From assembly GCF_014696435.1 (NCBI RefSeq), contig NZ_JACJQG010000003.1:124001-188000 (forward strand): 64,000 nucleotides of DNA, given 5' to 3'. The notes beneath the pieces were generated by a model that searched no databases, was not told where the DNA came from, and saw nothing but the letters and a program-made list of their open reading frames with translations. The DNA comes from Calothrix anomala FACHB-343 (lineage in GTDB: Bacteria; Cyanobacteriota; Cyanobacteriia; Cyanobacteriales; Nostocaceae). The position numbers and the translations under genes were made by a program. Positions 26,920-60,646 of the stretch are shown here, one piece after another; position 1 is the first letter of the stretch, and each line of letters starts with the position of its first letter.

Positions 26920-27108
26920 CCGAAGTGGCTATTGTCTTGTCCGAAGCGGCTATTGTCTTGTCCGAAGTGGCTATTGTCTTGTCCGAAGCGGCTATTGTAG
27001 TATCCGAAGCGGCTATTGTAGTATCCGAAGCGGCTATTGTAGTATCCAAAGCGGCTATTGTAGTATCCAAAGTGGCTATTGTCTTGTCCGAAGCGGCTAT
27101 TGCAAAGC
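26920..27108. repeat. 21-bp tandem array, 9 units (array 1)
   Basis: Nine contiguous 21-bp units, no spacers: CCGAAGYGGCTATTG followed by TCTTGT (units 1-3, 8) or TAGTAT (units 4-7); the last unit decays. Unit starts: 26920, 26941, 26962, 26983, 27004, 27025, 27046, 27067, 27088. Because 21 is divisible by three, open frames run through it on both strands; I regard these as artefacts. Confidence 0.93.
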
Positions 27109-27179
27109 TGAAAACCCTTTCCTGTGGTCATAATACTACCTTTGCAGGGGTAAGGGTTGTTTTTTAGTTTAGCAATTGG

Positions 27180-27209
27180 GCGAGGAAAAGAGCGATCGCA
27201 CTTCCTCGC
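27180..27209 (-). terminator. Possible terminator after metF
   Basis: GCGAGGAA (27180-27187) pairs with TTCCTCGC (27202-27209), 38 bp after the metF stop on the minus strand; a HIP1 site fills the loop. A run of A's (T's on the minus strand) is not adjacent, so confidence is modest. Confidence 0.4.
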
Positions 27210-27246
27210 TTTACAGTTAGCTAAAAAATGCGATCGCCTTTGCTGT

Positions 27247-28176
27247 TTACTTAGTTAATACCAAATTAACTGGCTTAACTCCCGCTAAATCTAAAATTTG
27301 GGGAATTAAATCTTCTCGCTTTACTGCCATCATGTGTACGCCTTGACACAATTGTTGGGCAATTTGTACTTGTTCGGCAGCAATTTTTACGCCTTCTTCT
27401 AGCGGGTGTTTGGCTTTAGCTAACCTATCAATAATGTGCTGGGGAATATTTACCCCAGGAACGCACTTATTAATAAATTGGGCATTTTTTGCCGATTTTA
27501 ACAGAAAAATTCCGGCTAAAATTGGTTTATTACAGCCTGCAGCTACGCTGTACATAAACTTTTCTAACCTATCAAAGTCTGTAATTAATTGACTTTGAAA
27601 AAATTGCGCTCCTGCTTGTAATTTGCGTTCAAAGCGGCTTTGTAAACCTGATAAACTCGCACATTGTGGATCGACGGCTGCACCTACAAATAAATCGAGT
27701 GCGCCATCAGTTAAAGGTTGTTCGTTAGCATCAATACCTTGATTAAGTTTGCGAATTAGTTGCAGCAAACGAATAGCTTCTAAATCAAAGACGCCTTTAG
27801 CATCTGGGTGATCGCCAGCTTTTACTGGGTCACCTGTTAAAGCTAATATATTATGGATACCTAAAGCATGGGCACCCATGAGGTCTGCTTGTAAACCAAT
27901 GCGATTGCGATCGCGGCAAGCCATCTGACAAATCGGTTCAATTCCATGTTGTAATAAAATTGCCGAAGCTACCAACGAAGACATCCGCAATACTGCTCGG
28001 CTACCATCGGTAACATTGACAGCATGAACCCTCCCCTTAAGAGTCGCCGCCATATCAAGCATGTGTTTTGGATTTCCGCCTTTAGGTGGTGCTACCTCGG
28101 CAGTAATTAAAAATTCGCCTGCTTGTGCAGCTTGGCGAAAGCCATTCAAGACTGTCGGATTTTGAGTATCAGACAT
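27247..28176 (-). CDS. metF: Methylenetetrahydrofolate reductase family protein
   Basis: 309 residues, the TIM-barrel flavoprotein that reduces 5,10-methylene-THF to 5-methyl-THF for methionine synthesis. Visible: FLITAEVAPPKGGNPKHML near the N-terminus (catalytic Glu), GSRAVLRMSS, ALTGDPVKAGDHPDAKGVF, QFFQSQLITDFDRLEKF and KPILAGIFLLKS. The length is normal. It is a single gene; the 21-bp array lies downstream. The distant cyanobacterial branch of MetF diverges from the E. coli enzyme, so the exact activity is inferred. Confidence 0.88.
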   Translation of the reverse strand: MSDTQNPTVLNGFRQAAQAGEFLITAEVAPPKGGNPKHMLDMAATLKGRVHAVNVTDGSRAVLRMSSLVASAILLQHGIEPICQMACRDRNRIGLQADLMGAHALGIHNILALTGDPVKAGDHPDAKGVFDLEAIRLLQLIRKLNQGIDANEQPLTDGALDLFVGAAVDPQCASLSGLQSRFERKLQAGAQFFQSQLITDFDRLEKFMYSVAAGCNKPILAGIFLLKSAKNAQFINKCVPGVNIPQHIIDRLAKAKHPLEEGVKIAAEQVQIAQQLCQGVHMMAVKREDLIPQILDLAGVKPVNLVLTK

Positions 28177-28383
28177 AACATTCAGAATTTCCAGTTTCTT
28201 TCAGGGTAAATCAATTTACCCCTATTGAGATGTTTTATAAAGTAAACCTTAAATTCTTGGTTGCGTTATGGCAATGCTGAACGTATCTATAAATCTCGTG
28301 CTTTACAGCTAATTTTCATGCACTCAAAGCCTCAAATCCTATGAATAGCCATAACACCAGGCTACTTTTGAAAATCAGGGAAA

Positions 28384-28399
28384 CCACTAAAAATAGTGG
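28384..28399 (-). terminator. Small hairpin after trpS
   Basis: CCACTA and TAGTGG arms around AAAA, 50 bp after the trpS stop on the minus strand. A short TTT follows in that direction. Weak. Confidence 0.3.
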
Positions 28400-28447
28400 C
28401 TTCCTAACTTAATATTTACTTTACATAACAGGCTCTCAAGGCAATCC

Positions 28448-29458
28448 TTAATGAGGTATGGTGTAGCCTAAAGCAGCTTTAACTTCTGCTAGAGTTTGGT
28501 TAGCAACAGCTTCGGCTTTTTGCTTTCCTTCCCGCAATACCGACTCAAGATAACCTTTATCTGCCATAATTGCCTGATATTTTTCTTGAATTGGTTTCAA
28601 GGCTGCGATCGCAGTTTCGGTCAATAATGGTTTGAATTGTCCCCAACCCATATCTTGACATTCTGCTGCCACATCTTCTTTGTTTTTACCAGACAACAGC
28701 AGATATAGGGTTAACAAGTTATTACACTCAGGACGTTCTGGATCGTCAAAAGTTAAACCCCGAATTGGATCGGTTTTACAACGCTTAATTTTATTAGCAA
28801 TTTGCTCTGGCGTGTCTAACAAATTAATCCGGCTTAATTCTGACGGATCGGATTTTGACATTTTCCGCGTACCATCAGTTAAACTCATCACCCTTGCGCC
28901 TTCCTTACGAATCAAAGGTGCTGGTAGCTTTAGCACTGGTTGATCCGGTTTCGCAAATAAATGATTAAATCGATTGACGATATCTCGCGTTAATTCTAAA
29001 TGTTGCTTTTGGTCTTCACCCACTGGCACAAAATCTGCCTGATAAAGCAGAATATCAGCCGACATCAGCACAGGGTAATCCAATAAGCCGACACCGACAT
29101 TTTCCCCTTGTTTCACAGCTTTTTCTTTAAACTGGATCATATCTTGCAGCCAGTTAAGGGGAGTAATGCAATTGAGCAACCAGGTAAGTTCGCTGTGTGC
29201 CGAGACGTGAGATTGTACAAAAATGGTGGAATAATTTAAATCTAGACCACAAGCTAAATAGAGAGCAACGAGGTTATAGGTATTAGATGCCAACTCTTTG
29301 GGGTCATGTGGCACCGTAATTGCGTGTAAATCAGCGACAAACAGATAATTGTCGTAATCACTCTGGGCTTCCACCCAGTTACGAATTGCTCCTAAGTAGT
29401 TGCCTAAATGTAAATTTCCAGTTGGTTGAACTCCCGACAGAACGCGCTGCTTGCCCAT
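28448..29458 (-). CDS. trpS: Tryptophan--tRNA ligase
   Basis: 336 residues from the ATG at 29458 (MGKQRVLSGVQPTGN); the frame's TTG three codons upstream is less likely. Class I signatures are clear: the HIGH-type motif in PTGNLHLGNYLGA and KMSKS in RKMSKSDPSE. SADILLYQADFVPVGEDQKQH and the C-terminal region with EGKQKAEAVANQTLAEV fit bacterial TrpRS. It charges tRNA-Trp. A single gene with no operon partner. Confidence 0.95.
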   Translation of the reverse strand: MGKQRVLSGVQPTGNLHLGNYLGAIRNWVEAQSDYDNYLFVADLHAITVPHDPKELASNTYNLVALYLACGLDLNYSTIFVQSHVSAHSELTWLLNCITPLNWLQDMIQFKEKAVKQGENVGVGLLDYPVLMSADILLYQADFVPVGEDQKQHLELTRDIVNRFNHLFAKPDQPVLKLPAPLIRKEGARVMSLTDGTRKMSKSDPSELSRINLLDTPEQIANKIKRCKTDPIRGLTFDDPERPECNNLLTLYLLLSGKNKEDVAAECQDMGWGQFKPLLTETAIAALKPIQEKYQAIMADKGYLESVLREGKQKAEAVANQTLAEVKAALGYTIPH

Positions 29459-29535
29459 AAATTTCAAGTTAGTTATCTCAAATCCGCCCTATCCAAGGCG
29501 GCAATTACAAAACACATTTAATTTTGACATTTTCT

Positions 29536-29600
29536 AGGGGCATTGGGCATTGGGAATTGGGCATTGGGCATTGGGCATGGGGCATTGGGCATTGGGCATT
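29536..29600. repeat. Heptamer STRR (GGGCATT)n
   Basis: About nine copies of GGGCATT with a few variants, upstream of trpS. Confidence 0.85.
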
Positions 29601-29606
29601 TGTTAG

Positions 29607-29626
29607 AGACGCGATGAATCGCGTCT
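29607..29626. repeat. Dispersed hairpin, AGACGCG family, copy 2
   Basis: Same hairpin and same downstream sequence (GTACAATTGTCTCCCTTGTC) as at 19238. Confidence 0.8.
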
Positions 29627-30585
29627 GTACAATTGTCTCCCTTGTCCCCCTTCCTAGCCCCTAGCCCCTAGCCCCTAGATCTACTTTAGATATCGATGGG
29701 GATTGTTGCGATATTGTAATTATCTCTGCAATGATTATTCAGGATAAGAGCGATCGCCTGACTTTTGATTTTTACAACACTGATATAATGCAGCATAAAT
29801 CAGCGTGCTATTGACAATTTTAGCGGGGAAATTACTTTTTTAATTCGTTAGGTAGAGAATTTACTTGAGGATTATTTCGGCTAATTTGTATTAATTGTTA
29901 ATAGGTATTTTATTTTTTCTAAGAGAAAAAACATCAACTTCTCGGGGTTTGCAGTAGCAACACAGTACTAAATTAGTCAATTTTAGGTGAATTAAATGGC
30001 TAAGACTAGCAAAAAGCTGATTGATTGTATTTATTGCAGATTTTAATACTTTTTTGGCTATAATTAGCAATCTTATTTCTTTTTTGTCAAAAAAACAACT
30101 AATTCAAATTTAATAATTTCTATAAACTAGTCTTTCAATTCGCTCGATATTAATGCATTGATGCTGAATACGCATTTTTTGACTGTATTTTTTATACTAG
30201 TATTTAGAATTGCTATGTTATCTACAAGCTAGATTTTTTCATTATTTTGCCTAATAATAAGTTATTGTCATAGCTAAATCTGTTTACACATGTGATTTAT
30301 AATACAAATACCATGATAAATAAATAACTTTACCGAAACTTCATAATATTATCCAAAAAGCGTGGCAATATAATTTGCAGGTTGCTAACTATATTGGATA
30401 AACTAACAACTAATAATTAAACAATCAGGATGCATTCCCCATATTTGGCAAAGTTTGAGGAATGACATAAATCTTTTTTGCTTATTCCCTAATCGTAAAA
30501 AATACTAGCCCAGATTTTCATCTTTAGAGAAAAATTTGTTGGCTTTTTTCGTTATTGATTGATCTTTTTTTAGGTGATGTTTTTT

Positions 30586-33483: not shown

Positions 33484-33499
33484 CAAGCAAATTAGGTTA

Positions 33500-33624
33500 G
33501 TTAAGAGTCAACAGTCCAGAGTCAACAGTCCAAGGTCAACAGATGAAAATCAATAGTCTCAAGTTAAATAATACATAACAATTGACCATTGACTATTGAC
33601 TATTGACCATTGACTATTGACCAT
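33500..33624. repeat. Heptamer-based repeats
   Basis: Mixed AACAGTC-type (33503-33542) and TTGACCA/TTGACTA-type (33581-33624) heptamers between the protease and the iminopeptidase genes. Confidence 0.75.
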
Positions 33625-33643
33625 TTTCACCTAATTCCTACCA

Positions 33644-39815: not shown

Positions 39816-39976
39816 GGGAGCATCCCAAATGTGCAAAAACGCCCTCACCCTATAAGGGTGGGGCTAGAAATACGAAGCCTGCCTTCGCAGGCTATCAAAC
39901 TTTTAGCCTGCGAAGGCAGGCTTTGTTGGTATAGCAATACCCTTATAGGGTATTGCGTCAAAATTGGGATGCTCCC
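39816..39976. mobile_element. 161-bp inverted-repeat element, copy 1
   Basis: Ends GGGAGCATCCCAAAT and AATTGGGATGCTCCC are inverted. The interior has three nested hairpins: ACCCTATAAGGGTGGGG, a long stem GCCTGCCTTCGCAGGC / GCCTGCGAAGGCAGGC, and ATACCCTTATAGGGTAT. The same 161-bp sequence recurs at 45354-45514 with a few changes. No gene inside, so a nonautonomous (MITE-like) element is the best reading. Confidence 0.8.
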
Positions 39977-40124
39977 CAGCCGAATTTCCCTTGATGATAA
40001 AGTGTAGAGATAAAATTAGCATTGGCGCGTGGGCATGAGCTAGCGAGTGAATTAATTATATAGATGTGCAAATTTATCTAAATTAGCTTGTTTATTAATT
40101 GTGATGCTTGCACAAGATTTCTAT

Positions 40125-40287
40125 ACTTGATTTACAATCTGTATACTTGATTCGCGAATTAGAAAACTTGATTTACAATCTGTATACTTGATTTACGATT
40201 CGTATACTTGATTCGCGAATTAGAAAACTTGATTTACGATTCATTTACTTGATTTACAAGTCGCAAAACTTAATTTGCAGTGGGATT
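40125..40287. repeat. 20/21-bp tandem array, 8 units (array 2)
   Basis: Units start with ACTTGATT at 40125, 40145, 40166, 40186, 40206, 40227, 40247 and (ACTTAATT) 40268, i.e. spacing 20-21 bp. Two unit types alternate: ACTTGATTTACAATCTGTAT and ACTTGATTCGCGAATTAGAA(A); the second holds the palindrome ATTCGCGAAT. No spacers. Confidence 0.88.
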
Positions 40288-40605
40288 TTCAATAAAAATG
40301 AAACTACTCTAGAATAGCGATCGCATTTGGGTTTTTAGCTAATTGTAAAGTTTTTACCCAAGTATTAATACTGAATTTTTGCGTTTTTATTAAACAGTTA
40401 TTTTTCTCAATACCACGATAAATCATCAGTTATAGTCTACGTAAATATACTTAATTTGTATAAGTTTGTCTATTTAGCGCTAGTTGCAAGCTACAAGCGA
40501 GGGAAATTTTTGCATAACCTCCAGCAACTCAGAGATATATAGGGGTGAAGCAAGTAAATTAACTTTAGAACTAGTTAAAAACTTAGTACTTTAGGAGAAA
40601 TAGCA

Positions 40606-41112
40606 ATGAAAGGGTTAAAATTTGCCGTCGCTATAATTGCCTTAGCAACATTAACTCATGCTCCCAAAGCTGAAGCCACAAGCTTATTCAACAATCCCCA
40701 AACAGCAGCAGCAAAACTCATAGCACAAGTACCAGCAGAAAATAACGCTGAAGCTTCCCTCAAACGGGGAATTGAACGTTTAGACAAAGAAGACTATCAA
40801 GGTGCTGCAACTGAATTTAGCAATGTTTTGAAAATTGAACCGAACAATATTTATGCTTATGTTGGTAGAGGTGCGGCGAGGATGTATCTCAACGAATACC
40901 AATTAGCAAAATCTGACTTTGACAGTGCTTTAAAGATTACGCCTGATATTTCTTTAGCTTACTATTTTCGCGGTTTTACCAATTTGGCATTAAAAGATAA
41001 AGCCGCCGCACTCGCTGATTTACGCCAAGCATCTACTTTATTTAAACAAGAAAATAAATTAGATTTGGCGCAAAAAGCTGATAACGCCATTAAAGAAATT
41101 GAAGCTAGTTAA
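40606..41112 (+). CDS. Exported TPR protein
   Basis: 168 residues; TAGGAGA precedes the ATG. It starts with a signal peptide (KGLKFAVAIIALATLTHA, cleavage near AEA). Two to three tetratricopeptide repeats follow: ASLKRGIERLDKEDYQGAAT, IYAYVGRGAARMYLNEYQLA and LAYYFRGFTNLALKDKAAAL. Such proteins act as periplasmic or lumenal scaffolds; no partner is known here. It is followed on the same strand after 76 bp by a TPR-CHAT gene, with a heptamer repeat in between, so the two may share a transcript. Confidence 0.75.
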   Translation: MKGLKFAVAIIALATLTHAPKAEATSLFNNPQTAAAKLIAQVPAENNAEASLKRGIERLDKEDYQGAATEFSNVLKIEPNNIYAYVGRGAARMYLNEYQLAKSDFDSALKITPDISLAYYFRGFTNLALKDKAAALADLRQASTLFKQENKLDLAQKADNAIKEIEAS

Positions 41113-41116
41113 ATGT

Positions 41117-41151
41117 TAACTGTTGACTGTTGACTGTTGACTGTTGACTGC
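41117..41151. repeat. Heptamer STRR (GTTGACT)n
   Basis: Five copies of the heptamer (complement of the AACAGTC/CAGTCAA type) in the gap between the TPR and TPR-CHAT genes. Confidence 0.85.
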
Positions 41152-41188
41152 ATTTATTTAGGTTGTGGAGTATGCTGGAGAATTGGTG

Positions 41189-43930
41189 ATGAACTACCGT
41201 TGGCAATATCATATTCTTGCTTTTGTAGTCCCCTTGCTAATTCTCCAGTCTGAAGCTGTTTGCTTTGTTCCTCTTCCTCTGATGGCGCAAACAAAAACCC
41301 CACAAGAACGCAATAGCGAAGCTATCAAGCTTTTTTATTTAGGGCTTGAGCAGTACAACCAAGGTAAATATCAAGAAGCATTAGAAACCTTACAACAAGC
41401 ATTAATAATTGTTAGAGACATTCAAGCGCGTCAGGGTGAAAGCTTAATTCTTTATCAAATAGGACAAGTATATGAAAAATTGCGAGCTTACACCAAAGCA
41501 ATCGAATTTTATCAGCAAGCATTAGCAATTGGTAAAGAAATTTATAATCAGGATTTAGTAGGAAAAATTCACAATCAAATAGGCGAAGTTTATCGCCAGA
41601 TGCAAAACTATAATCAAGCTTTGCAAGCTTATCAGCAAGCTTTAAACTTTTACAAACAAATTAATAATCCTATCGGGCAAGGTTTAACTCTCAACTATAT
41701 TGGTCAAATTTACAACGAATTAAAAGAAGATCAGAAAGCTTTAGATGCCTATCAACAAGCTTTAGCTATTCTGATAAAACTCAATGATAAATTAGGGTTA
41801 GTAGCTACTTACAAAAATCTGGGATTTACCTATGAAAACTTAGGGGAATATAGTAAAGCTTTAGATGCTTATCAACAAGCTTTAGCCTTAATTCCGCAAA
41901 CTGAGTATCCCGTAGGCGCAGGAGCAATATTGGATAGTATTGCTAGTGTTTATACGATTATTGGAAAGTATACTAAAGCATTAGATATTTATCAGCAAGC
42001 TTTAGAAACTGCTAAAAAAGCAAATAATCAAGGGGGAGAAAGTTTAACTCTGCATAATATTGGTGGAGTTTACTACAGATTAGGACAATACCCACAAGCG
42101 TTAAAATTTTATCAACAAGCTTTAGCTCTTAGTAGACAAATTAGCGAAAAGGTAGCAGAAAGTAGTATTCTCAATAGTATTGGACTAGTTTATCAGCAAG
42201 AAGAAAAATATCAAGAAGCATTGCCTTTTTATCAAGCAGCTTTAAAAATTGTCCGCACAGATAATAATTTATCTACAGAAAAAGCAGCAGCAATTTTGAA
42301 CAATATTGGCTTGGCTTACAGAGGTTTGGGGGAATATAATCAAGCTTTAGATGTTTATCAGCAATCTTTAGCAATTATTAACCGTGGTGGCTCGGAGATT
42401 GGTAAAGGAACAACTCTCAATAATATTGGAGTAGTTTACTTTCATTTAAAAGAATATGGTAAAGCATTAGAATTTTCTCAGCAAGCTTTGGCGATTCGTC
42501 AACGGATTGGCGATCGCGCTGGAGTAGGAGATACCCTAAATAATATTGGCGCAGTGTATCAAAGTTTAAAAGATTACGATAAAGCCGAGAAAACTTTACT
42601 CGCGGCTCTGGAAATTTGGGAATCTTTACGTCAAGGTTTAACTGATGCTCAGAAAATTTCTATTTTTGAAAATCAAGCTAAAAGCTATCGGTTGTTGCAA
42701 GAAGTATTAATTGCCCAGAATAAAATTAATTCTGCCTTAGAAGTGAGCGATCGCGCTAGAGCTAGAGCCTTTATTGAGTTACTAGCCGCTAAACAATCAC
42801 AGACAGCAAACCCGCAGTTAGATATCAAACCTCTGACAATCGAGCAAATTCAAAATATCGCTAAAGTTGAGAATGCAACTATAGTTCAATATTCAATCAT
42901 CGATGATAAATTACTTTATATTTGGCTAATCAAACCTACAGGTGAAATTACCTTTAAGCCAGTTGATTTATCAAAAGCTACTGATACTCCTCTCTCACAA
43001 CTTGTGACTATTAGCCGTAAAGCTATGGGAGTATTAGATCGTGGGATTTTTCAACCCCAATCTAGCCTACAACCTAATCCAACTCAGCAGCTACAAAAAC
43101 TCTACCAAATATTAATTAAACCAATTGTCCAAGATTTACCAACAGATGCTAACGCCCGTGTTATCTTTGTTCCTCAAGAATCGCTATTTGTAGTACCTTT
43201 TGCCGCACTACAAGATGAACAAGGCAAGTATTTAATCGATAAACATACTATTTTAACTGCACCAGCTATTCAAGTTTTAGAATTAACTCGCAAGCAAAAA
43301 CAAAACCTTAACCAATCTCTGAAAGATGTGCTGGTGGTTGGGAATCCGATGATGCCAAAAATTCCCATTACAGAGGAAAAATTAGCACCGCTTCCTGGTG
43401 CAGAAAAAGAAGCAAAACAAATTGCTGAATTATTGAAAACCCAAGCGATTATTGGGAATAAAGCCACAGAAACAACCATTGTGAGCAAGATGAAGCAAGC
43501 CAGGATAATTCACTTTGCTACTCACGGCTTACTCGATGATTTTAAAGGATTGGGCGTACCTGGAGCGATCGCTCTCACAGCCAGCAATCAAGATGACGGC
43601 TTTCTCACCAGTAGCGAAATCCTTGATATGAAACTCAGCGCCGAACTCGTAGTTCTCAGCGCTTGTAACACTGGCGGCGGAAACATTACAGGCGATGGTG
43701 TCATTGGTTTATCCCGTTCTTTAATTACTGCTGGCGTACCCAGTGTCATTGTTTCTCTGTGGGCTGTAAATGATGATTCCACCGCCTTTTTAATGAGCGA
43801 ATTTTATCGCCAACTCCAAAAGAATCCTGATAAAGCTGTGGCGTTACGTCAAGCAATACTGACTACCAAAAAACAATATTCCCATCCTTTCGACTGGGCT
43901 GCATTTACCCTAATTGGTGAAGCAGATTAA
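41189..43930 (+). CDS. TPR-CHAT domain protein (caspase-like peptidase fold)
   Basis: 913 residues from the ATG at 41189 (GGAG 8 bp upstream); an in-frame GTG at 41165 is less likely. A signal-peptide-like segment (YHILAFVVPLLILQSEAV) begins the protein. About ten TPRs follow (residues 45-480), each with a KALDxYQQALAI-like core. The C-terminal CHAT domain shows the catalytic His in IIHFATHGLLDD and Cys in LVVLSACNTGGG, so the dyad is intact. CHAT domains are clan CD peptidases like caspases and separases; exported TPR-CHAT proteins are abundant in filamentous cyanobacteria and their substrates are unknown. A relative lies at 57719. Confidence 0.88.
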   Translation: MNYRWQYHILAFVVPLLILQSEAVCFVPLPLMAQTKTPQERNSEAIKLFYLGLEQYNQGKYQEALETLQQALIIVRDIQARQGESLILYQIGQVYEKLRAYTKAIEFYQQALAIGKEIYNQDLVGKIHNQIGEVYRQMQNYNQALQAYQQALNFYKQINNPIGQGLTLNYIGQIYNELKEDQKALDAYQQALAILIKLNDKLGLVATYKNLGFTYENLGEYSKALDAYQQALALIPQTEYPVGAGAILDSIASVYTIIGKYTKALDIYQQALETAKKANNQGGESLTLHNIGGVYYRLGQYPQALKFYQQALALSRQISEKVAESSILNSIGLVYQQEEKYQEALPFYQAALKIVRTDNNLSTEKAAAILNNIGLAYRGLGEYNQALDVYQQSLAIINRGGSEIGKGTTLNNIGVVYFHLKEYGKALEFSQQALAIRQRIGDRAGVGDTLNNIGAVYQSLKDYDKAEKTLLAALEIWESLRQGLTDAQKISIFENQAKSYRLLQEVLIAQNKINSALEVSDRARARAFIELLAAKQSQTANPQLDIKPLTIEQIQNIAKVENATIVQYSIIDDKLLYIWLIKPTGEITFKPVDLSKATDTPLSQLVTISRKAMGVLDRGIFQPQSSLQPNPTQQLQKLYQILIKPIVQDLPTDANARVIFVPQESLFVVPFAALQDEQGKYLIDKHTILTAPAIQVLELTRKQKQNLNQSLKDVLVVGNPMMPKIPITEEKLAPLPGAEKEAKQIAELLKTQAIIGNKATETTIVSKMKQARIIHFATHGLLDDFKGLGVPGAIALTASNQDDGFLTSSEILDMKLSAELVVLSACNTGGGNITGDGVIGLSRSLITAGVPSVIVSLWAVNDDSTAFLMSEFYRQLQKNPDKAVALRQAILTTKKQYSHPFDWAAFTLIGEAD

Positions 43931-49364: not shown

Positions 49365-50000
49365 ATGGTGAAGAAAACAGCATTGATCGGTAGTATAGTT
49401 AGTTTTGGGATATTATTCGCAATTGCATCTAGTAAAGCAGTTGCGCAAACATCCCACGAAGCGCATTCATCGCCAACAATCCAAACCCAGCAATTTCAAA
49501 GAATTGAACAACCATTAGGAAATAAAATCGCCGTCACTCTTGGCGGATTGGGATTAATGGGCTTAGAAATTTGGTGGTTTTTGCTGAGTAAACCCAAATC
49601 TCAAAAAGCAGTTGCAACAAAAGAAAATATTCAAGAAGTAACCATTACTGTTGATGGCGGATACGATCCCAGTCGAATTGTAGTACAAGCAGGGAAACCA
49701 GTACGCCTGAAATTTACCCGCACAGATCCCAGCAGTTGTTTAGAACAAGTGATAATTCCCGACTTTCGCATCGCCGCAGATTTACCCCTAAATCAAGTCA
49801 CAACAATAGAATTTACACCCGACACACCAGGCGAGTATGCTTTTAGTTGTGGAATGAATATGTTTCATGGTGCGATCGCAGTTCAAGCTGCAGAAAATAA
49901 CTCAGAAAGAAACTTGGCGACAATTGCTAGTGTTGCTGACTTGCAAGAGCGAAAAGATTTTGCCGAAACTGATTCTTATTATTCGCGAAAAAGTACCTAA
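49365..50000 (+). CDS. Cupredoxin-like membrane protein
   Basis: 211 residues; AGGAGG lies 7 bp before the ATG. A signal sequence (TALIGSIVSFGILFAIASSK) and one more membrane segment (VTLGGLGLMGLEIWWFLL, about 60-78) precede a cupredoxin-type beta-sandwich (about 90-175; VTITVDGGYDPSRIVVQAGK, VRLKFTRTDPSSCLEQVIIP, TPGEYAFSCGMNMFHGAI). The Cys-x-Met-x-x-x-H-like end and the earlier Cys suggest metal ligands, but not a normal blue-copper site. Its place directly after copA suggests copper handling at the membrane. The stop codon lies at the first base of the 21-bp array. Confidence 0.8.
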   Translation: MVKKTALIGSIVSFGILFAIASSKAVAQTSHEAHSSPTIQTQQFQRIEQPLGNKIAVTLGGLGLMGLEIWWFLLSKPKSQKAVATKENIQEVTITVDGGYDPSRIVVQAGKPVRLKFTRTDPSSCLEQVIIPDFRIAADLPLNQVTTIEFTPDTPGEYAFSCGMNMFHGAIAVQAAENNSERNLATIASVADLQERKDFAETDSYYSRKST

Positions 50001-50188
50001 AAGTCGTATTTGGGTACCTAAAAGTCGTATTGGAGTACTTCAAAGTCGTATTTGAGTACCTCAAAGTCGTATTTGGGTACTTCAAAGTCGTATTTGAGTA
50101 CCTAAAAGTCGTATTGGAGTACTTCAAAGTCGTATTTGAGTACCTCAAAGTCGTATTTGGGTACTTCAAAGTCGTATTTGGGTACTCC
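50000..50188. repeat. 21-bp tandem array, 9 units (array 3)
   Basis: Nine contiguous 21-bp units beginning AAAGTCGTATT, at 50000, 50021, 50042, 50063, 50084, 50105, 50126, 50147 and 50168. The rest of the unit varies between TGGGTACCTA, TGAGTACCTC, TGGGTACTTC and GGAGTACTTC. No spacers. It begins at the stop codon of the cupredoxin-like gene and runs up to an IS605-like remnant. Confidence 0.93.
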
Positions 50189-50193
50189 AGAGT

Positions 50194-50640
50194 CACCAAA
50201 CACCTCGCGCCGTGGAAGCCCCTACATTCATGTATGGGGGTAAGGCGCAGGCGAATTTATTCGCTGTCAAAAAACTTGTGCTTCATGGGATAATCGGTGT
50301 ATGTTGAAATAGGCAAAGACACTGTGCAACCCCACAGAAACGGCTTCGCTAGTAGACATAGAGGCTGTCGCGTAGCCTTGATAGGGTAAAAACGTATTGC
50401 TTGCCAAAGGGCAAAACAGTGTGTTTTTGGGGCGTGGGGGTGAGTACATCACGCCAGTTGCTTTAAGTCGGGAAACCCGCCCAACGCACTGGCTCCTCTG
50501 TTTAATCGTAACCGCGTCCTCGCTCGACACGTTCGGGAGATAGTGTTTCGGAACCTGAACAGGAACCAAGCCGCTATTTCTCAGGGCTACTAAAAGCCCC
50601 CGGATTTATCCGTGGGGAATGCGTTACAACTCAATATTTC
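50194..50640 (+). mobile_element. Remnant or nonautonomous IS200/IS605-type element
   Basis: Hairpin GCCCCTACAT-tc-ATGTATGGGG (50218-50239) near the left end and CCCCCGGAT-tt-ATCCGTGGGG (50597-50617) near the right end are typical of IS200/IS605 ends. Sequence before the right hairpin (GGGAAACCCGCC..., CCTGAACAGGAACC, 50470-50570) resembles the 3' end of tnpB and its omegaRNA. No intact tnpA or tnpB frame lies between. Limits are approximate. Confidence 0.5.
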
Positions 50641-53493: not shown

Positions 53494-53524
53494 TAATTAG
53501 CTTTTCATCGGTTAACAGGATTTG

Positions 53525-53758: not shown

Positions 53759-54222
53759 GATAGGTCAGATTAGGCGATCGCATTTTCTATTCCCCAAAAG
53801 GGGATAAATTTTCCCAATACAAGTTTAATTAGTATAACTTACTACTATATAATTTCTCACCAGCCAGTCTAGTCTTGAGTTTTCTTCAGCTATCTGCTGA
53901 TGATGCTTTATTATAGCCCTCACTCCAGTCACCGAGCAGAAAAGAATAGTTAGTAATCAGCCAAGATGCTTTGTATCTCTGAAAATCTCTAATTTGAGAA
54001 TATTAGTTATAGGTAATTAGAGCAATTTACATTCTGGTTTACCGAACCCTACAATTCGCGTAAACCGTAATATATTTTCCCGCATAATTGAGTTCGGTAA
54101 TCATCATGAGTGCGGTGATAAAAACCGAATTTACACAAGTTTTCATCATGAATAATATAAGAATCAAAGCAACAAATTAAATCGTAACTCCAGTAAATAA
54201 ACAATTAGAGGTTAGAAAAAAT
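53759..54222. other. Leader region of hsp20, no gene seen
   Basis: 464 bp, AT-rich, without an open frame. I searched for the CIRCE repeat (TTAGCACTC-n9-GAGTGCTAA) and did not see one. The last 40 bp (AATTAGAGGTTAGAAAAAAT) hold the ribosome-binding site. Confidence 0.45.
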
Positions 54223-54642
54223 ATGGCTATTTTACGCTACAACCCATTTGCTGAAATCGCTACAGTGCAAAGTCAAATTGATAAAATCTTTGAAGATTTA
54301 CAAGCACAAACATTTAAGACTCCAGCAGCCGAATTGACGGAAACTGACGATGCCTTGTATCTCAGACTCGAACTACCTGGAGTAGCAGCAAAAGATGTAG
54401 ATATTGAAGTAACTGAAAATGCTGTTAAAGTAGTAGCAGAAAGAAAACTTGAAAATCAAGAGCGGACTCGTTCTGAATTTTATTACGGTAAATTCCAGCG
54501 TGTAATTCCCCTCAAAGCGAGAATTCAAAATACCAATGTTACCGCAGATTATCAAGATGGTATTTTGACTTTGACATTACCCAAATCTGAGCAAGAAAAG
54601 AACAAAGTTGTCAAAGTTAATCTAGAACAACCGACTGCTTAG
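54223..54642 (+). CDS. Small heat-shock protein, Hsp20/alpha-crystallin family
   Basis: 139 residues, close to the ~16-17 kDa cyanobacterial HspA. The alpha-crystallin domain (about 33-130) shows AELTETDDALYLRLELPGVA, AKDVDIEVTENAVKVVAERK and the C-terminal DGILTLTLPK. A short N-terminal arm (ILRYNPFAEIATVQSQIDKI) and a short tail complete it. It acts as an ATP-independent holdase and protects membranes and phycobilisomes under heat stress in model species. It is a single gene. Confidence 0.92.
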   Translation: MAILRYNPFAEIATVQSQIDKIFEDLQAQTFKTPAAELTETDDALYLRLELPGVAAKDVDIEVTENAVKVVAERKLENQERTRSEFYYGKFQRVIPLKARIQNTNVTADYQDGILTLTLPKSEQEKNKVVKVNLEQPTA

Positions 54643-54953
54643 TTTGAAGCTTTTTCCTCCAATGGTTGATTGAGATAACTTAGAGCTTGGTAATAATATC
54701 ACCAAGCTCTTTTATTTTGTATGACCGAAGAGGCGGAGGGGCAGGGGGACAAATGACCATTGACCATTGACAACTGACTGGAAAAGGCGGGGGGAACAAG
54801 CCCTTTCCCCTGGGTGAAGCGGAGCAGAACATGGGTACCAGCCCAGTTCATAAAGAGCGCTTATATGGGGCGGAGTCCAAGCTCCGCCCCGGTCTTCCCC
54901 CTTGCCCCCTGCCCCCTGCCCCCTGCCCCTTTTCCTCTTCTTGACCACCCAAT
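54643..54953. other. Intergenic, repeats
   Basis: Contains a possible hsp20 terminator (AGCTTGGTAATAATATCACC then AAGCTCTTTTATTTT, 54683-54717), TTGACCA heptamers (54753-54770), a GC-rich palindrome GGGGCGGAG...CTCCGCCCC (54868-54889) and CCCCCTG heptamers (54899-54930). Confidence 0.5.
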
Positions 54954-55628
54954 TTAATTGCTTGTGGTTTCTAGCCGTTGTAGGGAAATTCTGGCGGCTT
55001 CGGCAACGTGGGGATGGCTATCTTTTTCGAGGTATTTTAAGGCGGAGAGACTCTTGGGTGTGGGCAGATTACCTAAGGCTTCGGCAAGGCGTTGCCTTAC
55101 TAGCCAATCTTCGGCTTGGGCAAAGCGCAGAATGAGATCTACGGATTCGATGTCTTTAATTTCTCCTAAAGCTGCGATCGCAGCTTGTTGGATGATCACT
55201 TCTTTACTATCTAGCGCTTCAATTAAAATCGCATGGGCGCGGGGATCTTGAATATTGCCTAGAGAAACTGCTGCACTAAAGCGGACTAGCCAATCAGTAT
55301 TTTCATAAAACGCCCGTGATAGCACTTCAAAGGCTCTCGGATCGCCTAAATATCCTAAAGCTCCAGCAGCATCGGCTCTGATGCCATAATCTGGGTCAGT
55401 TTCTAGAATTTTGACTAAAAGCGGGTAACTTTCTGGTGTTTGTTTCACGCCCAAGGCGAAAATAGCCATTGAACGCAGTTGCAGAGAGTCGTCATTCAAC
55501 ACCTTTTTAATTAAAGGTACGGCATCTTCAGAAGGAACATCGCGGAGATTAGCCAAAGCCACCATGCGATCGCGTAAATTTGCACTTTCTAACTGAGCAG
55601 AAATTTCTTCTAAGGTTAAAGCTGCCAT
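54954..55628 (-). CDS. HEAT-repeat protein, NblB/CpcE-like
   Basis: 224 residues from the ATG at 55628 (MAALTLEEISAQLESANLRD). About six HEAT/PBS-lyase repeats: VPLIKKVLNDDSLQLRSMAI, LLVKILETDPDYGIRADAAG, WLVRFSAAVSLGNIQDPRAH and so on. This size and repeat type match NblB-like and bilin-lyase-like HEAT proteins of cyanobacteria, which handle phycobilins or help degrade phycobilisomes. HEAT proteins are also generic scaffolds, so the role is tentative. A second one of similar length lies at 61855. Confidence 0.72.
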   Translation of the reverse strand: MAALTLEEISAQLESANLRDRMVALANLRDVPSEDAVPLIKKVLNDDSLQLRSMAIFALGVKQTPESYPLLVKILETDPDYGIRADAAGALGYLGDPRAFEVLSRAFYENTDWLVRFSAAVSLGNIQDPRAHAILIEALDSKEVIIQQAAIAALGEIKDIESVDLILRFAQAEDWLVRQRLAEALGNLPTPKSLSALKYLEKDSHPHVAEAARISLQRLETTSN

Positions 55629-55718
55629 TTTTATCACTTTCTTTACTTATCTTTACTTTATAAAATTTTTTCTCATAAAGAGAACCTCATTCTAGGGCGG
55701 TTAACCAGATAAGGTTTA

Positions 55719-55750
55719 GTAGGGCATGGGGCATTGGGCATTGGGCATTC
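55719..55750. repeat. Heptamer STRR (GGGCATT)n
   Basis: About four copies of GGGCATT, followed by CTTGTCC/CTTGTCT heptamers (55758-55795). Confidence 0.8.
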
Positions 55751-55898
55751 TTCCCCCTTGTCTCCCTTGTCCTCCTTGTCCCCCTTGTCCCCTAGCTCCT
55801 CAACTACTACCCACCTAATACCCAATGTCTTACTTGTTGCCGATGACAACTAGAACTGAAAATTGATGCAATAAGTCTAGTTTTGACCAGCAGTACTC

Positions 55899-57035
55899 AT
55901 GACAAACCGCGTTTTGATTCTTGGAGGTAGGGGAAGGATTGGTAGCAGTGTTGCTCAGGATCTAGCCACCCACACTCAGGCAGAAATCACAATTACTGGA
56001 CGTTCCCCTGTGGCTGAGGGGGATTATGCTAAGTGGCTAAGTAGCAAAAATAACTGGAATTTAGGCACAAATGTACAGTTTTTATTGTTGGACTTGGCGG
56101 AAGTTGATAAGCTGCGAGAAGCGATCGCTAATTCCGATTTAATCATTCACTGTGCCGGGCCTTTTCACTACCGCGATACGAATGTTCTCCAAATTTGTAT
56201 TGAACAAGGCGTTAACTATTTAGATGTTAGCGATCACCGTTCTTATACGAGTAAGGCTTTAGAGTATAACGAAAAGGCTGTGGCTGCTAATGTCACAGCA
56301 ATTATTAATACGGGGATTTTTCCGGGTATTTCTAACAGCATGGTGCGGCAATGTGTTGAGCAATTCGACAAACCAGAAAAAATCCATCTTAGTTATTTAG
56401 TTTCTGGTTCTGGTGGTGCTGGCATTACAGTTATGCGCACAACTTTTTTAGGATTACAACATAGTTTTGAAGCTTGGATAAATGGTAATTGGCAATTAGT
56501 AAAACCCTACAGTGACCGAGAAATTATTAATTTTCCCGCTCCCTATGGACGTAGTGGAGTTTATTGGTTTGATATGCCAGAAACTTTCACAATGCCTCAT
56601 TCTTTTCCTTCAGTGAAAACTGTAATTACAAAATTTGGTTCAATACCCGATTTTTATAATCACCTAACTTGGATAGCTGCCCATATCTTTCCTAAATGGT
56701 TAATGCAACGTCGCAGCACGATTGAATTTCTATCTCATGTCAGTCATTTTATGACGGATGTTACTAATCCTTTTACGGGAATTGGGGTAGCAGTACGCGC
56801 AGAAGTTACCGGAATGAAAGATGGTAAAACAGGTATTTATTGTGCAAATTTAGTTTATGCAAATACCGCGTTAGCTTCTGGTTGTGGTACAGGTAGCATT
56901 GCGCAATTACTACTCGAAGGTAAACTGCAAAAACCTGGCGTTTTACCTGTAGAAGAGGCATTAACGACAGATTTATTTATACAAACAATGGCAAGCAGAG
57001 GCATTGAAATTAATCATAATTGGCTAGAAAATTAG
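55899..57035 (+). CDS. Saccharopine dehydrogenase-like NADP-binding protein
   Basis: 378 residues. The N-terminus is a Rossmann fold (RVLILGGRGRIGSSVAQDLA), with LIIHCAGPFHYRDTNVLQIC and VNYLDVSDHRSY as in Sacchrp_dh_NADP proteins. The C-terminal half (GISNSMVRQCVEQF, LVSGSGGAGITVMRTTFLG) fits saccharopine-dehydrogenase-like or trans-acting enoyl-reductase-like oxidoreductases. The substrate cannot be deduced; cyanobacteria do not generally use the saccharopine pathway. Probably cytoplasmic. Single gene. Confidence 0.78.
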   Translation: MTNRVLILGGRGRIGSSVAQDLATHTQAEITITGRSPVAEGDYAKWLSSKNNWNLGTNVQFLLLDLAEVDKLREAIANSDLIIHCAGPFHYRDTNVLQICIEQGVNYLDVSDHRSYTSKALEYNEKAVAANVTAIINTGIFPGISNSMVRQCVEQFDKPEKIHLSYLVSGSGGAGITVMRTTFLGLQHSFEAWINGNWQLVKPYSDREIINFPAPYGRSGVYWFDMPETFTMPHSFPSVKTVITKFGSIPDFYNHLTWIAAHIFPKWLMQRRSTIEFLSHVSHFMTDVTNPFTGIGVAVRAEVTGMKDGKTGIYCANLVYANTALASGCGTGSIAQLLLEGKLQKPGVLPVEEALTTDLFIQTMASRGIEINHNWLEN

Positions 57036-57718
57036 AATAAATCTTTCTAAGGGGGATTTAGGGGGATCTGAAAGGTTTTGCTACCCGCGACAGAACTTTT
57101 AAAACATCCTCTAAGGTTTGATGGTGAAGACTTAGGGAATTACAAAAAATCAATTATCCCAAATTGTAGGGGCGGGGAAACCCCGCCCCTACGAGGATTT
57201 GCTGGCGAATTAGGGGTAAGACTCCTCGCTTATCCCGCAATCCCGCCGTCACCCTCAAGGGTGCGGCTAATTGAACAAAGCCCACGCAGGTGGGCTTTGT
57301 AGCGTGAGCCCCAGGCTTTGAGCCTGCGGGCGATATATCGGGTAAGCGAGAGAACAATGTAGATCGCTATTGAGAAATCATACTCACCATTCGCCAAGGG
57401 TGTCTGAAAGTTGCATAACCTCACCCTGCTTAGAGCTATGTAAGAGTAAGCCATCAAATAACGGGGGTATTGTGGTTAATATATGCCAAAACTTAGCCAA
57501 ATTCATCAAATCTTTAGCATTTTTACCCAGCTAAAAAGCATAACTTAATTACTGACAGATGTTTTAAGTCAATAGACCACGCAGTAGGGGCACGGCATCA
57601 GCCAGATTATGATATGTACCAGAAAATTGTCGGTGCCGTGCCCCTACGAAAGGCTCTGTGGTTCAATTATCACCGAAACTGCTGTAATCCTCATCCAGCC
57701 ATAACTTCATCCTTTAAT
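57036..57718. other. Intergenic, palindromic repeats
   Basis: Holds GTAGGGGCGGGG-aaa-CCCCGCCCCTAC-type palindrome (57168-57193; related to the ends of the 34634 element), then GCCCACGCAGGTGGGC (57281-57296) and CAGGCTTTGAGCCTG (57312-57326). A pair GTAGGGGCACGGCA (57585-57598) and TGCCGTGCCCCTAC (57632-57645) flanks the start of a frame upstream of the CHAT gene. No gene seen. Confidence 0.55.
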
Positions 57719-60169
57719 ATGCGTTTTCACAAAATTGCTCTAAGTTTCCTCGCCCTAGTTATTGCCACAGCTTCCACACCGATAAATTTCAACCTTTCAG
57801 GAACGCCGGGAGAATTACGAGTACTGGCGCAAACACCACAAGCTAGGAAAGCCGAAGCTGATAGACTGTTTAAGCAAGGTATTCAGCAGTTTGATACCAG
57901 TCAATTTGAAGCAGCATTGCAATCTTGGCAACAAGCACTGATTATTTACCGAGAAATCAAAGACCGTAAAGGCGAGAGTTGGATACTTGGTAGTTTCGGT
58001 CTTGCTTACTATGCAATGGGAGACTACCCAAAAGCCATTGATTACTATCAGCAGAGTTTAGCGATCAGTCGTGAAATTAAAGACAGATTAAGCGAGGGAA
58101 CGGCGCTGGGTAATCTCGGTCTTGCTTACTATGCATTGGGAGACTACAATAAAACCATTGAGTATCACCAGCAACATTTAGCGATCGCCCGTGAAACTAA
58201 ACATAGATTAGGCGAGGGAAACGCCCTGGGTAACCTCGGTATTGCCTACCTTAACTTGGGAGACTACCCAAAAGCGATTGAGTACTTCCAACAGAAATTA
58301 GCGATCACCCATGAAATTAAAGATCGCAGGGGCGAAGGTGGGGCGCTGGGTAATCTCGGTCTTGCCTACTTTGAGTTGGGAGACTACCCAAAAGCGATTG
58401 AGTACCACCAGCAGAGTTTAGCAATTCTCCGCGAAATTAAAGACAGATTAGACGAGGGAATCGCCCTGGGTAATCTCGGTCTTGCCTACTATGCATTGGC
58501 AGACTACCCAAAAGCCATTGAGTACCTCCAGCAGAGTTTAGCGATCGCCAAAGAAATTAAAGATAGACTAGGCGAGGGAACGGCGCTGGGTAATCTCGGT
58601 CTTGCTTACCATGCATTGGCAGACTACCCAAAAGCGATTGAGTACCACCAGCAGAGATTAGCGATCGCCAAAGAAATTAAAGATAGATTAGGCGAGGGAA
58701 TCTCTTTAAACAATCTAGGACTTGCTTTCTACAAACAAGGTAATCTTCCCATAGCAGAGAAAACCTTGTATGAGGGAATTAATGTGTTGGAATCTCTGCG
58801 AGATAAAAAGTTAGCTGATACCAATAAAGTCTTATTTTTTGACACCCAAAGCCGCACCTATAGAATTTTACAACAAGTCCTCATCGCCCAAAATAAAACT
58901 GATGCTGCTTTAGAAATAGCCGAACGTGGTCGTGCTAGGGCGTTTGTTGAGTTGTTAGCATCTCGTGTATCTACTAATAATAAACAGGGGGATAAATCAC
59001 CGCTAGCACCGACAATTGCCCAGATTAAACAAATCGCCAAACAGCAAAATGCTACTCTCGTGCAATATTCTATTATTTATGATGATTTCAAAGTAGCTGG
59101 TAAACAACAAGCTAAAGAATCAGACCTCTATATCTGGGTTATTAAACCGAATGGGGAAGTCACATTCCGCAAAGCTGACCTCAAACCCCTGTGGCAAAAA
59201 GATAATACAACTTTAGAAGAATTAGTTTTTAACACCCGTGATTCTTTGGGTGTAGTTGATGACGACAGGAGTATTTTTGAATCACAATTCAATAACCCTA
59301 ATAATGAAAAAGCCCAACGAGAAAACTTACAAAAACTCCATCAACTATTAATTAAACCCATAGCTGACTTATTACCAACCAACCCCAATCAACCTGTAAC
59401 TTTTGTTCCGCAAAGTAGTTTATTTCTTGTTCCTTTTCCTGCACTGATGGATGAACAAGGTAAACCAATAATTGAAAAACACACTATTCTTACCGCCCCA
59501 GCAATTCAGGTGTTAGACTTTACGCATCAATTAGGCGCAGGGAGACAGACTAATTATAATAACGCCTTGATTGTCGGTAATCCTACCATGCCTTTTGTGT
59601 CTACAAAACCAGGCAAACCTGCAACAAAGTTAAAGCCACTCCCAGGGGCGGAACTAGAAGCAAAAACAATTGCTCAGATGTTAAAAACTCAGCCGATTTT
59701 GGGTAAAGAGGCGACGAAAGCAAATATATTGCAACGCTTATCTTTATTCGATGTAATTCACCTAGCTACTCACGGTTGGGCGGATGATAACCGGGGTTTG
59801 GGTAGCTGGATTGCTTTTGCACCATCGGGTAAAGATGATGGGTTACTCAAGGCTGAGGAAATTTTAGATTTAAAATTAAAAGCGCAATTAGTGGTTTTAA
59901 GTGCTTGTGAAACGGGGAAAGGTAAACTTTCCGGTGATGGGGTGATTGGGTTGTCGCGTTCGTTGATTTCTGCGGGGGTTCCTAGCGTGTTGGTGTCGTT
60001 GTGGCAAGTACCGGATGCAGCGACACAATATTTAATGGTGGAGTTTTATAAAAGTTTGCAAACTCAGCCGGATAAGGCGTTGGCGTTGCGTCAGGCGATG
60101 TTGAAGACTAAGGAGAAGTTTCCAAACCCTGTGAATTGGGCGGCGTTTACATTGATTGGGGAAAGATAA
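57719..60169 (+). CDS. TPR-CHAT domain protein, second copy
   Basis: 816 residues from the ATG at 57719; the frame is open 35 codons further upstream, but that part crosses a palindromic repeat. Signal peptide IALSFLALVIATASTPINFN. Eight TPRs (about 45-390), seven of them near-identical 40-residue units (GNLGLAYYALGDYPKAIEYH, QQSLAIAKEIKDRLGEG), repeated in the DNA every 120 bp, which suggests recent expansion. The CHAT domain has His in VIHLATHGWADD and Cys in LVVLSACETGKG. It is a probable exported cysteine peptidase with unknown target, homologous over the CHAT half to the protein at 41189. Confidence 0.88.
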   Translation: MRFHKIALSFLALVIATASTPINFNLSGTPGELRVLAQTPQARKAEADRLFKQGIQQFDTSQFEAALQSWQQALIIYREIKDRKGESWILGSFGLAYYAMGDYPKAIDYYQQSLAISREIKDRLSEGTALGNLGLAYYALGDYNKTIEYHQQHLAIARETKHRLGEGNALGNLGIAYLNLGDYPKAIEYFQQKLAITHEIKDRRGEGGALGNLGLAYFELGDYPKAIEYHQQSLAILREIKDRLDEGIALGNLGLAYYALADYPKAIEYLQQSLAIAKEIKDRLGEGTALGNLGLAYHALADYPKAIEYHQQRLAIAKEIKDRLGEGISLNNLGLAFYKQGNLPIAEKTLYEGINVLESLRDKKLADTNKVLFFDTQSRTYRILQQVLIAQNKTDAALEIAERGRARAFVELLASRVSTNNKQGDKSPLAPTIAQIKQIAKQQNATLVQYSIIYDDFKVAGKQQAKESDLYIWVIKPNGEVTFRKADLKPLWQKDNTTLEELVFNTRDSLGVVDDDRSIFESQFNNPNNEKAQRENLQKLHQLLIKPIADLLPTNPNQPVTFVPQSSLFLVPFPALMDEQGKPIIEKHTILTAPAIQVLDFTHQLGAGRQTNYNNALIVGNPTMPFVSTKPGKPATKLKPLPGAELEAKTIAQMLKTQPILGKEATKANILQRLSLFDVIHLATHGWADDNRGLGSWIAFAPSGKDDGLLKAEEILDLKLKAQLVVLSACETGKGKLSGDGVIGLSRSLISAGVPSVLVSLWQVPDAATQYLMVEFYKSLQTQPDKALALRQAMLKTKEKFPNPVNWAAFTLIGER
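57937..58700 (+). repeat. 120-bp in-gene repeats encoding near-identical TPRs
   Basis: Six to seven units of about 120 bp, each with GGGTAATCTCGGTCTTGC, CATTGGGAGACTACCC and GAAATTAAAGA. DNA identity between units is high, so the array is young or kept uniform by conversion. Confidence 0.8.
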
Positions 60170-60262
60170 TTCGTCATTTGTCATTATTTAGGGAATCTCT
60201 AGTATCGATAGATTTTTTGTGAGGATACGGGGTTTTGCTGTGTCCTGACAATATATTCTAGA

Positions 60263-60284
60263 GGGCATGGCAGTGCCAGTGCCC
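60263..60284. repeat. Dispersed hairpin, GGGCATGG family, copy 5
   Basis: GGGCATGGCAGTGCCAGTGCCC, preceded by ATATATTCTAGA, 94 bp after the TPR-CHAT stop. Confidence 0.7.
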
Positions 60285-60394
60285 CTACAATCTGTTTTTT
60301 TTGCTGAAAATGTGCCAGCTTTATCATTTACACATATTGAGGACTGATTTTTAAATTTTGTGTAAACAAAAAAGGCGATCGCTTTCTCGTTTAT

Positions 60395-60646
60395 CTCAAT
60401 CAAATACTCATTTTTCTGTTTTAAGTAAGCAAAAAGCCATTTTACCTTCTCATTAAGCCTTAACGAGTTCTAATTATTGTGTTTTCCGCAAGTAAAATAC
60501 TATTTCACCTACTCAAAAAGCCATAACGCTTACTCGTTTCGGTAAATCGCGCACTCCTAAAGGTGTTTTCCGCAAGTGAAAAGCCATATTGGTTACTCAT
60601 TTTGGTGTTTTCCGCAAGTAAAAAGGTATATTACTGGCGCAAAAAT
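60395..60646. repeat. Degenerate 21-bp-phased array, about 12 units (array 4)
   Basis: Sub-repeats keep a 21-bp phase although the units have diverged. GTGTTTTCCGCAAGT occurs at 60479, 60563 and 60605 (84 and 42 bp apart). AAAAGCCAT occurs at 60432, 60516 and 60579 (84 and 63 bp apart). In register, TACTC or similar recurs mid-unit. All distances are multiples of 21. No open frame of note. Confidence 0.75.

Follow-up and report, generated by a model that had tools for sequence, protein, structure and literature searches.

The window analysed here is a stretch of 64,000 nucleotides from Calothrix anomala FACHB-343 (positions 124001-188000 of contig C68, in a genome of 9.24 Mb and 144 contigs). 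Four tandem arrays lie in it among genes whose Pfam matches are STAND/AAA, MTHFR, TPR, CHAT, cupredoxin, MerR and PfkB. Neither rep nor par, the usual companions of iterons and centromere sites, was found among these Pfam-matched neighbours. The MTHFR protein encoded in the window shares 99% identity with the MTHFR proteins of Tolypothrix sp. FACHB-123 and Calothrix brevissima NIES-22. The units of the arrays are contiguous, with no unique spacers of the CRISPR kind, and no Rfam match was found in the window. According to the original prediction, all four arrays share a period of about 21 bp; arrays 1 and 3 are clean in this respect, whereas array 2 advances in steps of 20/20/21 bp and array 4 is a degenerate 3 x 21 repeat.

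Array 1 (26920..27108, plus strand), recognized from TRF, the sequence and the Pfam matches of its neighbours, consists of nine 21-bp units of the CCGAAGCGGCTATTGTAGTAT type and is flanked by the genes for a STAND NTPase and for MTHFR (metF). It was reported by TRF at 26920-27102 with period 21, 8.7 copies, 91% matches and zero indels. The array is contained in an 88-aa open frame that was scored as a gene by our own crude ORF caller, so it was entered in the array list by hand; it is counted as intergenic because the frame was read as spurious, and annotators should be aware that it can be mistaken for an 88-aa gene. A terminator-like hairpin with a T-run (27138..27167, plus strand), which is a weak consensus match only, stands 3' of the array, where the fold of 27105-27170 had z -2.39. 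One terminator-like match was found around the array against 0.6 expected, and four promoter-like matches against 1.1 expected.

Array 2 (40122..40276, no strand assigned), recognized from TRF, the sequence, dispersed relatives and a duplication, has seven to eight units, whose 20/20/21-bp steps average about 20.3 and not 21 bp as judged by eye. TRF placed it at 40122-40259 with periods 20, 41 and 61, and its strongest intergenic lag was 61. It is a near-21 relative, not a clean 21-bp array. Around it, promoter-like matches numbered 7 against 2.5 expected and terminator-like matches 3 against 0.5. The region of array 2 and the TPR gene, at least 2585 bp long (39816-42400, perhaps further), is 99.96% identical to contig C134 from about position 7467, which reflects either a very recent duplication or assembly redundancy.

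Array 3 (49992..50188, no strand assigned) contains nine 21-bp units of the AGTACCTCAAAGTCGTATTTG type and was reported by TRF at 49992-50185 with period 21, 9.2 copies and 89% matches. It starts within the final codons of the cupredoxin gene (ORF 49365-50000), and its promoter-like and terminator-like matches were not above chance. Similar arrays occur on contig C116 of the same genome and in G013, G002 and Nostoc sp. NOS (G numbers denote the genomes compared). Among seven relatives, the distance between the conserved flanks of the array 3 site is about 70 bp in five (G002, G004, G006, G008, G010), as against about 800 bp in C. anomala; it is about 900 bp in G003, and G001 is also without the cupredoxin gene end. 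The site is rearranged and not cleanly filled, so none of the seven offers a clean empty site. Two more dispersed short repeats, 50193-50274 (~80 bp) and 50450-50505 (~55 bp), lie 3' of the array and have copies in this and related genomes.

Array 4 proper (60307..60632, plus strand), delimited by lag similarity and copy alignment, comprises about 15 diverged units in 21-bp register; the lag-42/63 similarity covers this whole span, and the sole TRF find was 60410-60528 (period 63, 75%). It is housed in a dispersed element, here called element 4 (about 60296..60731, ~435 bp, plus strand), which belongs to a set of at least 17 near-full copies in the genome, the window copy included, with 81-100% identity and with additional partial copies; this count is a lower bound, 40 of 91 candidates having been scored. 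In G001, 17 matches cover at least 320 query bases, and other copies lie on plasmids of Tolypothrix PCC 7601, PCC 7712 and Microchaete diplosiphon NIES-3275. The PCC 7601 plasmid copy sits behind a close relative of the window CHAT-TPR gene, and the CHAT-gene locus there compares as 587 versus 608 bp, a difference of 21. The copies are dispersed, non-coding and share a common leader and tail, as in a MITE that carries a minisatellite. Possible terminal inverted repeats (GCGCCAGC on the left, GCTGGCGC on the right) were seen by eye in only part of the copies. As regards a target-site duplication or a clean empty site, the single site set against its G001 counterpart proved to be rearranged and not clean. 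Beside a G001 copy of the element (L250, about 13750-14650; L089, 1865-2162) there is a tandem unit of ~296 bp, part of which resembles another many-copy dispersed repeat. The flanks of one G001 copy (L229) match two different C. anomala copies (L084 and L092) with identities of 96.7% and 91.4%, a pattern suggestive of a rearrangement by recombination within element 4.

The prevalence of the 21-bp period was surveyed with a metric that records repeats of intergenic segments over lags of 15 to 69 and excludes every segment whose identity exceeds 62% at some lag between 1 and 14; genes were called by the same crude caller. In 1.62 Mb of the C. anomala genome, 10 intergenic segments were found at lag 21, 15 at lag 42 and 13 at lag 63, against 0-2 at each other lag. 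The same lag picture was obtained in 400 kb of G001 (where stretches were partly chosen by hits), 200 kb of G013 and 200 kb of G008, the last with few arrays. In the surroundings of MTHFR at 80 Nostocales loci (1.48 Mb), 22 of 25 clusters were 21-type and were found in 17 of the 80 loci, one of which (L274) overlaps the G001 stretches. When the five Nostocales sets were pooled (3.9 Mb), 55 of 68 intergenic clusters with periods from 15 to 69 were 21-type, a class that occupies 9 of the 55 lags tested, and the figure was 49 of 61 when the partly hit-chosen G001 set was omitted. The best lags of the 13 other clusters were 17, 23, 23, 28, 28, 28, 29, 30, 33, 36, 39, 61 and 61, and the lag-61 cluster of the C. 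anomala genome is taken to be array 2 of the window itself. In this survey the period of 21 is therefore far commoner than any other from 15 to 69, as the prediction required, but not the commonest of all: 7-bp arrays outnumber 21-type arrays by 248 to 19 in the C. anomala genome, and 9-bp arrays are also frequent. These 9-bp intergenic arrays, many of the GGGGACAAG / CTTGTCCCC type, numbered 42 in C. anomala, 25 in G001 and 14 at the 80 Nostocales loci, with none in G013 and G008.

The units themselves are diverse. From 58 arrays, array 1 among them, 49 gave a usable 21-mer consensus, and these fell into 25 unit families at a cut-off of 15/21 matches, with no motif common to all families; the claim of one period across unlike units is thereby confirmed. 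A distant common origin, of which the loose resemblance of unit starts had been taken as a hint, finds faint support, as family consensuses match at 10.28 of 21 positions versus 10.12 +/- 0.06 after dinucleotide shuffling, and 20 pairs reach at least 13 matches versus 8.2 (range 4-13) in shuffled sets. The spacing of 10-13 kb seen in the window was not supported as a pattern, the survey density of 21-type arrays in this genome being about 1.2 per 100 kb. Outside these sets, 350 kb from G032 (another family of the same order) and from plasmids of Gloeothece PCC 7822 and Allocoleopsis PCC 7113 contained five arrays, none of them 21-type, which is weak evidence of absence because only about 53 kb of it is intergenic. 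Nor was any 21-type array found in the 100 kb surveyed on the Tolypothrix PCC 7601 plasmid, though element 4 lies elsewhere on the same plasmid. An array of the CAATGCCATTGCATCGACTAA type with 21-bp units recurs 1.4-3.8 kb before MTHFR at seven loci of several Nostocales genomes (L303, L311, L320, L324, L329, L336 and L338), in six of the seven within a divergently called gene pair. Taken together, the arrays are a class of non-coding intergenic arrays across Nostocales that is defined by its 21-bp register and not by its sequence; some families travel within a longer dispersed element, as array 4 does, and others keep one interval across the genus, as array 1 does. No description of 21-bp arrays in cyanobacteria was met in the open-access literature searched, and we found no described element that explains those of Nostocales.

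In the arrays studied, the bases vary widely and the spacing hardly varies. Among 442 spacings between successive units in the 58 arrays, 409 were 21 bp, 7 were 20, 1 was 23, 2 were 40, 2 were 41, 6 were 42 and 15 exceeded 45, while adjacent units differed at 6.57 of 21 bases (2741 differences in 417 pairs, which are not independent mutations). The spacings were measured with a 21-mer profile for each array, with out-of-phase hits allowed and 150 bp searched on each side; the 58 arrays had been preselected as 21-type by a finder that favours unbroken lag-21 runs, a bias that the out-of-phase search cannot remove. As a baseline, alignable intergenic DNA of C. anomala and G001 showed 925 substitutions and 102 gaps in 15,713 columns, or 9.1 substitutions per gap. 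In the alignment of 17 element 4 copies (347 columns, mean identity 0.870), the only gaps were a single block of 21 bp, present in 3 copies, and 6 bp close to where one copy is truncated, against 257 substitutions among 8 disjoint copy pairs (one copy unpaired); the window copy is without one 21-bp block that most of the aligned copies possess. The 36 non-self matches of at least 320 query bases (16 in C. anomala, 17 in G001, 2 in G002 and 1 in G005), drawn from the 17 first-look candidates scored per genome, differed in net length from the query by +21 in 31 cases, 0 in 3 and -1 in 2, where net length may mask compensating gaps. The step is shorter, 20 to 20.7 bp, in array 2 and in a few other arrays. 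The mismatch:indel ratio given by TRF was 74:1 for heptamer arrays, 17.8:1 for 21-type arrays and 2.8:1 to 9.9:1 for other periods, and with laxer settings 10.1, 5.2 and 2.6 to 3.1, respectively. Heptamer arrays are thus even poorer in indels, so the rigid register may reflect how such arrays arise or are detected.

Position is kept between relatives, as the prediction required, for array 1 and for the locus of array 4. Of the 9 genomes compared within the genus, 8 have an array in the STAND-MTHFR interval (C. anomala, G001-G006 and G008), and no array like array 1 was found in that interval of G007. The array adjoins MTHFR in C. anomala and G002-G005 and lies about 3.4-3.5 kb away in G001, G006 and G008; its unit consensus is clade-specific, its unit number is variable and its steps are 21 bp or multiples. 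The arrays differ between species and between copies by whole units. As for gene context, 18 of the 51 arrays that could be placed (of 58) lie in gaps between convergent genes against 7.4 expected (p=1.7e-4), a tally that counts some orthologous arrays more than once, and this enrichment hints at an insulator or terminator role. The STAND, TPR and CHAT neighbours noticed earlier are real in the window; the link does not extend to the other copies inspected, such genes not having been met beside ten other element 4 copies. Pfam matches (E 1e-8) of the left-hand genes of these 10 of the 17 copies were WD40, cation ATPase, exosortase, HAD hydrolase, transpeptidase, LuxR-type regulator, signal peptidase, kinase-GUN4 and acetyl-CoA synthetase, and one gene had no match. 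Among the copies whose neighbours were inspected, a CHAT gene stands beside element 4 only at the window copy and at its PCC 7601 plasmid and G002 counterparts.

The main rival to any functional reading is that the arrays are neutral or selfish minisatellites, produced by a process that duplicates in 21-bp steps (with another working in 7-bp steps) and turned over by unequal exchange, with no reader. This explains much with less, and we regard it as a serious possibility, though not a probable one. It accords with the differing unit numbers in one and the same interval and with the element 4 copies, which by eye have swapped unit types while the register stayed fixed. That heptamer arrays are as stiff or stiffer also fits, and a preference for convergent gaps would be expected of tolerated insertions. 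It accounts less well for the way in which substitutions have accrued in element 4 with a single 21-bp block as the only array-internal gap, and for the retention of 21 in diverged arrays, since a growth step alone cannot remove later indels.

Spacing could also be guarded by coding. If the arrays were remnants of heptapeptide repeats (7 codons being 21 bp), frameshifting indels would be purged, and array 1 does lie within an open frame. As a general explanation, however, coding is unsupported: 36 of 47 arrays had an open frame against 33.7 expected, none of 39 showed a codon-phase skew, and all six frames carry stops in the 17 copies of element 4. Heptapeptide coding was accordingly rejected and is considered highly improbable, while a single array could still be coding.

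Under another alternative, the arrays would be bodies of non-coding RNAs, with a promoter before and a terminator after. The hairpin after array 1, the promoter-like excess there and the excess of both signals at array 2 are in line with this, as are the inverted repeats followed by T-runs with which, by eye, several element 4 copies end. A few arrays also fold well: for 24 families the fold z fell below -2 in 4 on one strand and 2 on the other (lowest -4.3), and the element 4 consensus, against a column-shuffled null, gave z -2.4 on the plus and -4.3 on the minus strand. The mean z of the families was nevertheless only -0.64 and -0.65 on the two strands, and among 20 copies of element 4, of the 32 and 50 pairs predicted on the two strands, just 2 and 1 had changed at both partners, so that covariation was scarce on either strand. 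With array 3 at chance level and no Rfam match besides, RNA structure was rejected as a general guardian and also for element 4, and we judge the transcript reading improbable. Intrinsic curvature was likewise rejected as the cause: calculated from wedge parameters, it was above that of random sequence in most of 19 families, with no excess over column-permuted arrays (mean z 0.23). The idea that two helical turns per unit place every copy on one face of the DNA therefore gains nothing from curvature, nor from any 10.5-bp rhythm in the units.

A hidden 7-bp rhythm of modest strength appears in the unit consensuses. Over the 25 family consensuses, the 7-bp harmonic had z 3.1 against a dinucleotide null and 4.0 against permutation (3.9 and 4.6 in purine/pyrimidine coding); its sign agreed between the 9 families from C. 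anomala, G001 and G008 and the 16 from the other sets, and 8 of the 25 families ranked at or below 0.57. The 10.5-bp base harmonic was depleted in the same consensuses (z -3.5 and -2.7). Variability along unit positions in 41 arrays gave z 1.08 at 7 bp (no peak), 1.61 at 10.5 bp and 2.23 at 5.25 bp. In element 4, column permutation gave p=0.003 for period 7 in between-copy variability and p=0.026 in base power, and one heptad place holds A or T in all 48 consensus heptads; a stronger reading of this period (z 20; p<0.001) was discarded as its null was too weak, and column permutation took its place. Against dinucleotide shuffles, lag-10 identity of the units was depleted (z -3.4), and lag-10 complementarity (z 2.9) and dyad symmetry (z 3.0) were raised.

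This rhythm, together with the abundance of both array kinds in the same genomes, is what would be expected if old heptamer (STRR) arrays had diverged into units of three heptads, and for this reason the earlier suggestion of growth from 7-bp STRRs is half alive in an older form. A visible continuum is missing, however. Lag-21 runs split cleanly by lag-7 identity, with 33 at 0.1-0.5, none at 0.5-0.6 and 82 above, and lag-7 identity averages 0.28 over the 58 arrays. Plain lag-7 identity of the units is not raised (z 1.2 and 1.6, with z 2.4 and 2.6 at lag 6), and in degenerate heptamer arrays identity declines with distance (0.77, 0.69, 0.61, 0.52) with no bump at 21. An origin from visible heptamer arrays was rejected on account of the clean gap, and descent from older ones seems to us a doubtful prospect, of about the same standing as the transcript reading.

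Instead, it is tentatively proposed that the arrays may be a DNA-level scaffold held in 21-bp register and perhaps read in 7-bp steps, a compound reading that we consider plausible but somewhat short of probable. Selection acting on the double-stranded DNA itself would maintain the register, as suggested by the lack of support, on testing, for the two other usual guardians of spacing, coding and RNA pairing. With less certainty, a putative protein or filament might bind along the array and read it in 7-bp steps; after three steps, and two turns of the helix, the reader would again be on the face where it began (3 x 7 = 2 x 10.5 = 21). As no length below 21 bp holds whole numbers of both 7-bp steps and 10.5-bp helical turns, such a reader would call for a period of 21 and not of 14 or 28, and would also explain the presence of a hidden 7-bp rhythm and the lack of a 10.5-bp one. 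Reading of DNA as a track would account for the tolerance of base changes and the intolerance of indels other than whole units. A bound array could then insulate convergent genes from each other or end transcription between them, or it could serve as a chromosome-organising site.

Several known systems resemble the arrays in part. The STRR (short tandemly repeated repetitive) heptamers of cyanobacteria and other bacteria are likewise intergenic, tandem, abundant in the same genomes and rigid in register; the 21-bp arrays differ in having no visible 7-bp identity, many families and, in some cases, a place inside dispersed elements. Plasmid iterons and tandem centromere sites also consist of head-to-tail units near two helical turns that align a protein on DNA, and the heptad arrays of omega/CopS repressors step by 7 bp. 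Iterons and centromere sites lie next to rep or par genes and have a single unit sequence in common, whereas the 21-bp arrays have diverse neighbours and 25 unit families. A small RNA of Nostocales with tandem direct repeats is alike in order and repeat layout; its unit is longer and it is transcribed, whereas the 21-bp arrays gave no positive signal of transcribed RNA in sequence tests. BrickBuilt of Porphyromonas gingivalis is a 23-nt minisatellite inside a MITE, present as 19 dispersed segments (PMC4596501), which compares with at least 17 near-full copies of element 4. Both have a leader, an array and a tail, both are intergenic, and both gain or lose whole units between strains at the same site (PMC4596501). 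In that description, BrickBuilt appears with 23 and not 21 nt, as one unit family in one species, with terminal inverted repeats, which are doubtful in element 4, and with repeats drawn as long stem-loops, whereas the 21-bp arrays have no general fold signal (PMC4596501). BrickBuilt is the nearest in anatomy to array 4, and the STRR heptamers are the nearest in genomic setting, but from neither would one expect a single period in 25 unlike families.

Tandem repeats of bacteria are usually regarded as debris of slippage. In the 21-bp arrays, length is conserved while letters vary in many species of one order, and this therefore points to a rule on DNA geometry. The arrays thereby offer a concrete way into a long-standing question, namely why the intergenic DNA of cyanobacteria is so full of heptamer-based repeats. 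It is even conceivable, although rather unlikely in our estimate, that a putative protein or filament of heterocystous cyanobacteria steps along DNA by 7 bp, assembles on the 21-bp arrays wherever 3 x 7 bp coincides with two helical turns, and uses the abundant heptamer repeats as a second kind of track; if this were true, the unexplained heptamers of bacterial genomes would gain a function.
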